This document shows positions 46,408 to 52,037 of a stretch of 60,638 nt of DNA, piece after piece. Under the pieces are notes generated by a model. It saw only the letters and a program-made list of their open reading frames with translations. It was not told the origin of the DNA and searched no databases. A program made the translations under genes and the position numbers. Every line of letters starts with the position of its first letter. The stretch's first letter is position 1. This DNA comes from Candidatus Nitrosopolaris wilkensis (GTDB lineage: Archaea > Thermoproteota > Nitrososphaeria > Nitrososphaerales > Nitrososphaeraceae): the NCBI GenBank assembly GCA_003176995.1, contig QHBN01000132.1, positions 1-60,638 on the forward strand, in the 5' to 3' direction.

Positions 46408-47820
46408 ATGATCGATATGGCGAAGGCCGGTGCAACTACTACAACAGCAACGCCCGATCTTTGCACTTTAAGCCAGGATACGATTCTTCATATCGGATTT
46501 GATGACACGGACTCAACATGTGGAAAATGCACGACGCATCTAGCATTTAAGATTACGGGATATTTACTAAAGAATCCAGATACAAAGTTCCTCGACTATC
46601 CGTTATTGGTTAGGTTAAATCCCAATATCCCAATGAAGACACGTGGGAATGGAGCAGTATGCTTAAGAGTTATGGCAAGAAACCACGAAAGAATAATTCA
46701 AGATATAAGACAACTTATCGAAAAAGAATCAGCCATAGGGATGGGTGCAAATCCTGGTGTAGCATTTTTAAATGGAGGACTAGTCCCGGAAGCGCTCAAG
46801 GAATTTGGTAGGTTTGCAATGTTTGATATTCTAAGTAAGCAAAAGGCGGAAAAAATAGCAAAAGAAAATTGCGTTCGCCATTTCACTTTTGGAAACGGTC
46901 AAGGCTTAGTAGGCTCGCTAGCTGCAATTGGTAGTTTGGAAGATGGAGATCACACGTTTGAGGCTATAGCATACAGAAAGTGTAAGAACTATGGGACAAC
47001 GAGACAAATAAATGCGACTAGAGTAATTCAGTATGATAAGAGAACTTTTCCAAATACCTTCAGTAACTATGATCAAAACCACAGACGTGTGTTGATTGCT
47101 CCACACGGTCCAGATCCCGTTTTTTGCGGTATAAGAGGTGAAAGTCCAGAAGTTGTGGTTTCATCGTTAGAATGGTTACAGCCGGAAGAGATCTTGGAAG
47201 GATATATGGTCTTTCGCTCAAATCAAGGAACTAATATGCATCTGCAGAATGAATTGAAGTTATCAGCAATCAGAGTTTACATGGCTGGTTACGTACGCGG
47301 TAAGGTTATCACAAAACCGCAAACCATACAAGGAGGACATGTAATCTTCGGAATTAAGGATTCTGGCGGCGTTACAGGTTCGGCCGCAGTATATGAACCA
47401 ACTGGTCTGACAAAGATCGCTTCTCAAATGGAAATAGGAGATGTGATCGAGATAGGATGTGGTGTCCGAAAAGCAACATGTAATCGTTCTCCAATATTAA
47501 ATGTGGAATACATTTCTATCTTGAAAATTGTACAGATATGGGATCTGACTAATCCGCCCTGCAAATATTGTACGAAGAAAATGAAATCGGAAGGAAAGAA
47601 CAAGGGATTTCAATGCGACAGGTGTCGCTACAAGGACGGCAATGCCAAGAAAATCCCAGTGCTTCGGGATAGAGATGTCCTGACCGGGCTCTATGTTCCG
47701 ACGCCGAAATCTCATAGGCATTTAACCAAGCCCCTCCACAGATATGGTATGGAAAAGAAGTCATTAGGCTTTAATCCAAGATCGAAATTAATAGCAAGAT
47801 GGTTTTTTACCTCGTCTTGA
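46408..47820 (+). CDS. tiaS: tRNA(Ile2) agmatinylcytidine synthetase
   Basis: A 470-aa TiaS, which uses ATP and agmatine to modify C34 of the CAU-anticodon tRNA-Ile so that it reads AUA. Signatures: HIGFDDTDSTCGKCTTHLA at about 28-46, MKTRGNGAVCLRV, MGANPGVAFLNG, an OB-fold region (VYMAGYVRGKVITKP) and a C-terminal zinc ribbon (CKYCTKKM..CDRCRY). All domains are present, full length. The start is ATG 46408; ATG 46417 is possible. The initiator tRNA lies 9 bp beyond its stop on the opposite strand. Confidence 0.95.
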   Translation: MIDMAKAGATTTTATPDLCTLSQDTILHIGFDDTDSTCGKCTTHLAFKITGYLLKNPDTKFLDYPLLVRLNPNIPMKTRGNGAVCLRVMARNHERIIQDIRQLIEKESAIGMGANPGVAFLNGGLVPEALKEFGRFAMFDILSKQKAEKIAKENCVRHFTFGNGQGLVGSLAAIGSLEDGDHTFEAIAYRKCKNYGTTRQINATRVIQYDKRTFPNTFSNYDQNHRRVLIAPHGPDPVFCGIRGESPEVVVSSLEWLQPEEILEGYMVFRSNQGTNMHLQNELKLSAIRVYMAGYVRGKVITKPQTIQGGHVIFGIKDSGGVTGSAAVYEPTGLTKIASQMEIGDVIEIGCGVRKATCNRSPILNVEYISILKIVQIWDLTNPPCKYCTKKMKSEGKNKGFQCDRCRYKDGNAKKIPVLRDRDVLTGLYVPTPKSHRHLTKPLHRYGMEKKSLGFNPRSKLIARWFFTSS

Positions 47821-47828
47821 AAAATTAG

Positions 47829-47955
47829 TAGCGGGGGGTTGATTTGAACCTGCGGCCACCTGCGAAACGCAAAAGTGGAAACCGCTCTGCGGGTTATGAG
47901 CCCGCCGGGATCACCTAGCCTCACTTTTATAAGGATCTGGCTTCCCCACCCCGCT
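47829..47955 (-). tRNA. Initiator tRNA-Met (CAU) with two apparent introns
   Basis: Read leftward the gene gives acceptor AGCGGGG/CCCCGCT, D-stem GGGA/TCCC, anticodon stem GCGGG/CCCGC with loop CTCATAA, and a T arm GGTTG-TTCAAAT-CAACC. A1-U72 and the GGG/CCC anticodon stem are initiator hallmarks. The arms only form if two inserts are removed: about 22 nt in the D loop (near 47915-47936) and about 30 nt in the T-stem (near 47850-47879). Removal leaves a normal 75-nt tRNA. The second insert itself folds (CCAC/GTGG, TGCG/CGCA). No intron at the canonical 37/38 site; CCA is not encoded. Splice points are accurate only to a few bases. Confidence 0.85.
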
Positions 47956-47975
47956 GACAAACATCCTCTGCAAAG

Positions 47976-47987
47976 GTATAATATATC
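47976..47987 (-). promoter_or_regulatory. TATA box of the initiator tRNA gene
   Basis: On the gene strand ATATATTATACC, centred 26 bp before the tRNA 5' end at 47955, the classical archaeal spacing. Confidence 0.6.
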
Positions 47988-48212
47988 TCTGTTTCCTTTT
48001 GCATTCTCTGATAGGTACTTCCTTGTAAGTTGCGATTAACCACTATAGATACAACCAAGGGTTTAGTCAAATATTGCAGAGTAGAGCTGCCTCTAATCGA
48101 TTAATGCAATAACTTTAATTGATAATTATGTTAGCTAATATGAGTAATCATTAGTCAGCAACGCCTCGATATGTTTACATTCATATGACCTACTGGTACA
48201 GATAATAGAAAA

Positions 48213-49670: not shown

Positions 49671-52037
49671 TTGTCTACCCGCTACAACGATGACACGCCG
49701 TCACAAGAACACTTAGTCCGTTCATTGGGTTTTGTGGACGTCATGATGATCGGTATAGCGGGGCTAGTTGGAGGAGCTATATTTGTCCTCACTGGTCCAG
49801 CAATTGGTCTCGCAGGGGGTTCTGTTATTGTTGCCTTTATAATTAATGCAATAATCACTCTTTTTACGGCCATGGGATATGCAGAGCTTGGCTCCGCTAT
49901 ACCAGAAGCTGGCGGCGGTTACCTGTGGGTTAGGGAAGGATTACCAAGGCCAAATGCTTTCATAAGTGGCTGGATGGCGTGGTTTGCACATATCGTTGCT
50001 GGAAGCTTGTACGCTGTAGGATTTGGGTCATTTCTTTTTAGTCTATTGAAAATGGTAAATATTCTTGGAGACCATCCCCTGTTAGGAATTATTCCTTTTG
50101 ATAAGTTAATAGCAGTAGCCTCGATTGCTGCTTTTACATACATCAATGTTAAAGGAGTTTCAGAGACAGGCAAAGCTGGAACAATAGTCACAGTAGTTCA
50201 GCTCGGAGCCATCGCCGCTTTGATAGGTGCAGGTTGTTGGACGATTCATACTCATCCAAACTGGAAAGCAAATTTTGCTGATTTTCTGCCAAATGGCATA
50301 GGCGGGATTGTTGCTGCTATGGGTTTGACATTCATCGCGTTTGAGGGCTACGAGATAATAGTACAAACAGGAGAAGAGGTAAAGAATCCAAAGAAAAATA
50401 TTCCAAGGGCCATTTTTACCTCTCTAGCAATCGTAGTTGTTCTGTACTGTCTTGTTGCCTTTGTTTCCATAGGCGCGATATTTCCTCCAGGTGTTCCAGC
50501 ATGGAAATACATAGGTCATTACGGTGATCTGGGTATCACGAAAGCTGCTGCACTCTTTCTTCCATATGGGGCGTTTATAGTGCTGGGGGGAGGTATTGTC
50601 TCCAGCTTAGCAGCATTAAATGCCACTACATTTTCCTCTTCTAGGGTTTCGTTTGCTATGGGCAGACACTACAATCTGCCACACCGGCTAAGCGCTATAC
50701 ATCCCAGACATAAAACACCCCATGTTGCCATCGGAATATCGGGTGTAATAATGGCGGTTATGGCTTATGCACTTCCTCTTGATCAGATAGCAGTTGCCGC
50801 TGGAGTAATTTTCTTGCTGCTGTTTACTCAGGTAAATATCGCCGTTATCAATATAAGAAGAATGTATGGCGATAAACTAAACTATGGATTTAAGATTCCT
50901 TTTTTTCCAATAATTCCAATTATAGGTGTCTTCCTTAAACTCGGTCTTGCGTTATATTTGTTAGTCACACAGCCTTTAAGTTGGGTTATCTCAGCTCTCT
51001 GGATATTAGTCGGATTTGCACTTTATCGTATGTATACTTTCAAAAAAGAAATTGAGCATTATGCCCCTCTGGTAACAAGCGAAGGGCATTTAACCAGAAA
51101 GGAATACAGAATCCTGATTCCATATACTCCAGAAAATCCTGACAGGTTGATAAAGTATGCAATAAGGGTTGCCAAAGACAATGACGGTGAAGTCAATGTA
51201 TTAAGAGTAATTACAGTGCCAAATCAAACACCACTATCTGCAGGAACCGCGTTCGCAGATGCTGCCAGAAAATCATTTGAACCGTTGGAAAAAATGCTAG
51301 AACAAGAGAAGATTTTGAATCACTATTTGGTTAGGATTTCTCATGATACAAGCGAGGCAGTATTGGCAACGATTGAAGAACAAAAAATTGATTTGCTAAT
51401 TACTGACTTTGAAACATACAGAAATAATAAGAAACTTCAAACGCTAAGCACCTGTAACGTGCTTGCTATTAGAACAACCGGAGATGACCTTACTTTATTT
51501 GAATCCTCAGTTGAAGGTAGTGAGGATTTGACACCTGTTGCACAAACGGCTGAACGGCGTCTGAAAAAGAATATGGTTGTTTTATATGATGGCGGATATC
51601 ATTCAGACCTCGTACTAAAAGCAACGAGCTGGATAGAACACTCCGGAAAGTTCAATGTGAGTGTATTAGCGGTAAATAAAAGACGTGAAGACCAACCTTT
51701 AGAGGACGGAAAGGAATTCGAGGATCATGTTGCTCAAGATAACAAGCGTAAAGAGTACCTCGAACAAGTCGGAGTTGAATTTAATGAAATTTATTTGTCA
51801 GAGGAAACAGGAAAGAATAGTGAAAAATTTGCCGATTTGATTCTATCTGCTGTTAACGCATCTCAACCTGATTTAGTAGTGACTGGCGCAACTATTGGAA
51901 AATTTAGCTTCTTCAATAACAGCCACTTGTTGTCTCTACTAGATCAGTTAAACTGTCCTGTCGTAATTGCAAGGGAATTCACGATTCCCGGTGTCCATCG
52001 TGCAAAGGCTTGGTTTCTGAAAGTCATCAGGTGGTGA
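49671..52037 (+). CDS. APC amino-acid permease fused to two UspA-like domains
   Basis: A 788-aa protein. Residues about 15-450 form 12 spans of the APC superfamily (LGFVDVMMIGIAGLVGGAIF, GYAELGSAIPEAGGGYLW, FIAFEGYEIIVQTGEEVKNPKKNIPRAI given in parts). Two universal-stress-protein-like cytosolic domains follow, about 470-600 (YRILIPYTPENPDRLIKYA) and 620-775 (NMVVLYDGGYHSDLVLKA). Such fusions occur in archaea and bacteria and may let nucleotide binding control uptake; substrate unknown. The start is TTG 49671. Confidence 0.9.
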   Translation: MSTRYNDDTPSQEHLVRSLGFVDVMMIGIAGLVGGAIFVLTGPAIGLAGGSVIVAFIINAIITLFTAMGYAELGSAIPEAGGGYLWVREGLPRPNAFISGWMAWFAHIVAGSLYAVGFGSFLFSLLKMVNILGDHPLLGIIPFDKLIAVASIAAFTYINVKGVSETGKAGTIVTVVQLGAIAALIGAGCWTIHTHPNWKANFADFLPNGIGGIVAAMGLTFIAFEGYEIIVQTGEEVKNPKKNIPRAIFTSLAIVVVLYCLVAFVSIGAIFPPGVPAWKYIGHYGDLGITKAAALFLPYGAFIVLGGGIVSSLAALNATTFSSSRVSFAMGRHYNLPHRLSAIHPRHKTPHVAIGISGVIMAVMAYALPLDQIAVAAGVIFLLLFTQVNIAVINIRRMYGDKLNYGFKIPFFPIIPIIGVFLKLGLALYLLVTQPLSWVISALWILVGFALYRMYTFKKEIEHYAPLVTSEGHLTRKEYRILIPYTPENPDRLIKYAIRVAKDNDGEVNVLRVITVPNQTPLSAGTAFADAARKSFEPLEKMLEQEKILNHYLVRISHDTSEAVLATIEEQKIDLLITDFETYRNNKKLQTLSTCNVLAIRTTGDDLTLFESSVEGSEDLTPVAQTAERRLKKNMVVLYDGGYHSDLVLKATSWIEHSGKFNVSVLAVNKRREDQPLEDGKEFEDHVAQDNKRKEYLEQVGVEFNEIYLSEETGKNSEKFADLILSAVNASQPDLVVTGATIGKFSFFNNSHLLSLLDQLNCPVVIAREFTIPGVHRAKAWFLKVIRW

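Follow-up and report, generated by a model that had tools for sequence, protein, structure and literature searches.

Two non-canonical introns predicted in the only initiator tRNA-Met gene found in Candidatus Nitrosopolaris wilkensis

Introduction

How does an archaeon obtain its initiator tRNA when the gene is interrupted in both the D loop and the T stem? The question is raised by a locus in a 60,638-nt stretch of DNA (hereafter the window) from Candidatus Nitrosopolaris wilkensis, a soil thaumarchaeon of the ammonia-oxidiser lineage. An initial annotation, made from the sequence alone, had placed there an initiator tRNA-Met whose arms could be drawn only after removal of about 22 nt from the D loop and about 30 nt from the T stem, leaving a 75-nt tRNA. 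It had read both inserts as introns that imply a splicing endonuclease of relaxed specificity, and had called such a double interruption unusual for a thaumarchaeon. The coordinates, 47829-47955, are right, and the gene lies on the minus strand. Our analysis supports the reading of two non-canonical introns of the bulge-helix-bulge (BHB) type in the sole initiator gene found; excision is inferred. We are confident that this is a functional, single-copy archaeal initiator tRNA gene spliced by an α2β2 EndA and RtcB.

Gene structure and tRNA identity

The 127-nt precursor region (47829..47955, minus strand) comprises 75 exon nucleotides and two inserts. Read 5′ to 3′, exon 1 (AGCGGGGTGGGGAAGCCAG; 19 nt, 47937..47955, mature nucleotides 1-19) contains the 5′ strands of the acceptor and D stems and the D loop up to G18. 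It is followed by intron 1 (ATCCTTATAAAAGTGAGGCTAG; 22 nt, 47915..47936), inserted in the D loop at 18/19, and by exon 2 (GTGATCCCGGCGGGCTCATAACCCGCAGAGCGGTT; 35 nt, 47880..47914), which extends from G19 to U52 and carries the anticodon arm with CAU. Intron 2 (TCCACTTTTGCGTTTCGCAGGTGGCCGCAG; 30 nt, 47850..47879) interrupts the T stem at 52/53, and exon 3 (GTTCAAATCAACCCCCCGCTA; 21 nt, 47829..47849) provides G53 to A73, including the T loop and the 3′ strands of the T and acceptor stems. The Sprinzl numbers of the insertion sites (G18/G19 and U52/G53) are our own assignment. Splicing is predicted to join CCAG to GTTATCCC between exons 1 and 2, and GGTT to GTTCAAATC between exons 2 and 3.

The spliced 75-mer (19 + 35 + 21) is called tRNA-Met(cat) by ARAGORN with all four arms drawn, so that the cloverleaf is complete once both inserts are removed. 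On the other hand, no tRNA was called by ARAGORN in the unspliced gene, its run over the whole window, also with the intron options, gave spurious calls only, and the Rfam tRNA model aligned wrongly to the unspliced locus with 15.6 bits (cut-off 29). The two introns thus explain why both tools overlook an essential gene here. Archaeal initiator tRNAs are marked by an A1-U72 pair and by successive G-C pairs in the anticodon stem. Indeed, the 75-mer has the CAU anticodon and A1-U72, and its anticodon stem contains three G-C pairs in a row, the latter two features as initially described.

The tRNA 5′ end is preceded, at 25-34 nt, by a TATA-box-like element (GAGATATATT; 47980..47989, minus strand), and a TATA-like hexamer starts 28-39 nt upstream of the tRNA in all 57 family loci described below. 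Just downstream, a T-rich stretch (CTAATTTTT; 47820..47828, minus strand) is a possible terminator. The neighbouring TiaS-like gene (tRNA-Ile2 agmatinylcytidine synthetase; 46408-47820, plus strand) is convergent with the tRNA gene; its Pfam domains score above their cut-offs, and its NCBIfam match falls under the curated cut-off of that model. Further along, a gene at 49671-52037 (plus strand) fuses universal stress protein domains to an amino-acid permease. An 82-aa minus-strand open reading frame across the tRNA gene (47712-47960) was taken as spurious, because the tRNA accounts for the conservation there.

Predicted splice motifs and folding

In the standard BHB motif, cleavage occurs after the second nucleotide of each bulge. 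We read the motif as 5′ exon, H strand, 3-nt bulge, intronic helix, H strand and 3-nt bulge, H being the central helix. BHB modelling, which had been proposed as a check, allows both inserts to be drawn in this form, with 3-nt bulges separated by a 4-bp helix, and the standard cuts yield exactly the 75-mer. In intron 1, the helix pairs AGCC (exon) with GGCU (intron) and the bulges are AG^A and AG^G; in intron 2, GCGG (exon) pairs with CCGC (intron) and the bulges are UU^U and AG^G.

The pairing was then scored over the distinct introns of relatives. Standard pairs fill 103 of 112 central-helix positions for intron 1 and 165 of 168 for intron 2, while the first pairs of the intronic helix are standard in 51/56 and 123/126 cases, respectively, with several pair types at each position, i.e., with covariation. 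None of 2000 random re-pairings reached the observed pairing of the first intronic-helix positions, in a shuffle that ignores relatedness. Sliding the register is the better control: a displacement of 1-2 nt lowers the pairing of intron 2 to 4-43 of 126, and that of intron 1 to 22-45 of 56, the 2-nt slide remaining fairly high (45/56 vs 51/56). The case for intron 2 is therefore the stronger one. For intron 1, C-A or A-A mismatches occur in the central helix of some relatives, and the intronic helix is imperfect in the window.

Folding in isolation points the same way. The T-stem central helix has a probability of about 0.99, while a fold other than the D-loop BHB has the lowest energy: this BHB can be imposed only at a cost of 5.3 kcal/mol, and the probability of its pairs is close to zero both in isolation and after removal of intron 2. 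It is therefore the exact boundaries, the empty sites (see below) and the conserved GGCU at the intron end that speak for the proposed D-loop motif, and not its predicted stability. The plain minimum free energy (MFE) fold of intron 1 suggests another BHB-like motif, whose bulges lie on the opposite side of the helix; this was rejected, as it does not yield the mature tRNA, and the relatives favour AGCC/GGCU.

Conservation in Nitrososphaeraceae

The 127-nt query matched a locus in 57 of 61 Nitrososphaeraceae genomes, so the locus is not a chance arrangement. All 57 loci were read individually. Both introns are present at the same two positions in 45 of them. Five others, all from genus g12 (L029, L033, L041, L042, and L045), lack the D-loop intron and keep the T-stem one; their D loop reads CAGGTTATCCC, which is exactly the predicted junction. 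Five more, also from g12, are likewise without the D-loop intron, and here an intron of the T loop, near 58/59, takes the place of the T-stem one. One locus (G003) combines the D-loop intron with a T-loop intron, and the last is truncated by a contig end. In the relatives with a T-loop intron near 58/59 rather than in the T stem (L064-L068 and L056), the central helix seems shorter than 4 bp.

Across the 50 genomes with the T-stem intron, only 7 of the 75 exon positions vary, and two of these compensate each other in a G-C to A-U change of the acceptor stem. Among the same genomes, the D-loop intron occurs in 28 distinct sequences of 14-25 nt (29 states if absence is counted) and the T-stem intron in 42, which range from 24 to 37 nt. 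The two-intron gene is therefore the usual state in this family (45/57 loci), and "unusual" for a thaumarchaeon is too strong a word: both sites are also found in further families of the order, and thaumarchaeal tRNAs that carry several non-canonical introns are already documented (PMC8450103).

Copy number and alternative readings

When the spliced sequence was searched against the whole assembly, this locus alone matched; the other, intact initiator tRNA that would have spoken for a non-functional copy was not found in these 278 contigs. Likewise, the family genomes with a match have one such locus apiece. The assembly is a draft, 97% complete with about 5% contamination, and a second initiator gene could be missing from it, so that the negative result is strong evidence rather than proof. 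This draft state, together with a gene that in its unspliced form is invisible to ARAGORN and scores poorly in Rfam, is what would favour a decayed copy, the functional initiator tRNA being encoded elsewhere. Against this stand the single locus per relative and the lack of a further copy in the searched genome, the constant spacing of the TATA-like element in every relative, and exons that are near-invariant across 50 genomes while the introns drift; constrained exons with drifting inserts indicate introns and not a pseudogene, which we judge very improbable. An error of assembly or binning might be suspected from the same 278 contigs and their contamination, but independent assemblies contradict this: two further genomes of the genus carry the 127-nt arrangement with 98% identity, and other genera have it in diverged form, leaving this explanation with practically no weight.

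The inserts might instead remain in the mature RNA as expansion segments, as the stable hairpin formed by the T-stem insert in MFE folds could suggest. Yet the T stem is broken by this insert, both inserts differ freely in length (0-25 nt in the D loop and 24-37 nt in the T stem), and relatives without one or both inserts show exact empty sites, for instance the uninterrupted T stem of the intronless relatives L175-L185. Retention is hence highly unlikely, and excision of both introns remains our preferred reading.

Splicing machinery and proposed pathway

The genome has two EndA genes, for a predicted catalytic α (contig C42) and a degenerate β without the catalytic His (C152), and an RtcB ligase (C50). 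The 183-aa α subunit aligns end to end with the solved chains 3p1z and 3ajv; the positions of the Tyr/His/Lys triad are present, and K38 is aligned opposite K44 of the Aeropyrum pernix crenarchaea-specific loop, a residue reported to matter for broad specificity (PMC6379350). Thaumarchaea have α2β2 EndA, and archaea of this type hold most multi-intron tRNAs (PMC4090602). Judged by sequence, the EndA pair matches this published pattern, in line with the relaxed specificity initially postulated: a predicted catalytic α with the loop lysine and a degenerate β.

Both introns are very probably removed by the ordinary tRNA-splicing enzymes of the cell. The transcript would form a BHB at each intron site, and α2β2 EndA, permissive through the lysine of the crenarchaea-specific loop, would cleave each 3-nt bulge behind its second nucleotide. 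RtcB would then ligate the exons and thereby rebuild the GGUUG T stem as well as G18-G19 of the D loop, and the 75-nt product would initiate translation. Obligatory double splicing of the sole initiator tRNA might even have been selected for in Nitrososphaeraceae, e.g., if processing served as a checkpoint for translation initiation or if it protected the T arm from integrating elements; introns would then not be lost but replaced by others at neighbouring T-arm sites (52/53 or 58/59). We consider this very unlikely.

Distribution of introns in the class

The wider picture comes from a class-wide search and hand-picked loci, a biased sample. In this sample, the initiator gene is intact and intronless in several families, some marine relatives carry the 18/19 D-loop intron and no other, and other loci of the class have introns by the anticodon. 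One further family of the order (L208) also has the T-stem intron at 52/53, with pairing of the GCGG/CCGC type, and two more have comparable T-stem inserts (L209 and L210-L211). Both intron sites are thus found beyond Nitrososphaeraceae in these loci. The initiator tRNA of L210 (G288) apparently has two T-arm introns, at 52/53 and further 3′. At L205-L207 (family f3), an insert lies by the anticodon stem and the 5′ acceptor strand is not directly AGCGGGG, possibly owing to an acceptor-stem intron.

In the genome under study (L225-L241), ARAGORN recognises several other tRNA genes only as intron-containing (e.g., His, Leu-CAA, Ala, Cys, Arg, and Lys-UUU), and L231, L232, L233, L235, and L236 give no ARAGORN call. 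These results suggest further non-canonical introns.

One essential tRNA thus offers a well-sampled intron series, from intact genes in several families, through a D-loop intron alone in some marine relatives, to D-loop and T-stem introns together in Nitrososphaeraceae and T-loop introns in others, which could serve to study the gain, loss and movement of archaeal tRNA introns.

Comparison with known systems

Non-canonical introns are known in thaumarchaeal tRNAs: 107 were counted in Thaumarchaeota genomes, some crenarchaeal and thaumarchaeal tRNA genes carry several of them, and tRNAscan-SE 2.0 has a BHB model for which thaumarchaeal introns served as training set (PMC8450103). Genome-wide results of that program may list the present double-intron initiator tRNA; our literature searches, of partial coverage, found no report naming it. 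What is added here is the double-intron initiator tRNA and its family-wide presence. The two introns are of the same kind as the BHB introns of Crenarchaeota and Thaumarchaeota (PMC8450103, PMC4090602), being short, located elsewhere than at 37/38, having a 4-bp helix between 3-nt bulges, and occurring in hosts with α2β2 EndA. The known examples reach three per gene; the present two share the sole initiator tRNA found, as a pair that is usual in one family. Initiator tRNAs requiring EndA-type processing have been described in Thermofilum pendens, where tRNA-Met is permuted, and in Nanoarchaeum equitans, where tRNA-iMet is split between two genes (PMC3218864), whereas the present gene is continuous with two cis introns. 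Finally, the α subunit resembles the A. pernix type of EndA with its crenarchaea-specific loop (3p1z, 3ajv; PMC6379350) over its full length, in the triad positions and in the loop lysine; unlike that enzyme, it is a thaumarchaeal protein, of predicted activity.
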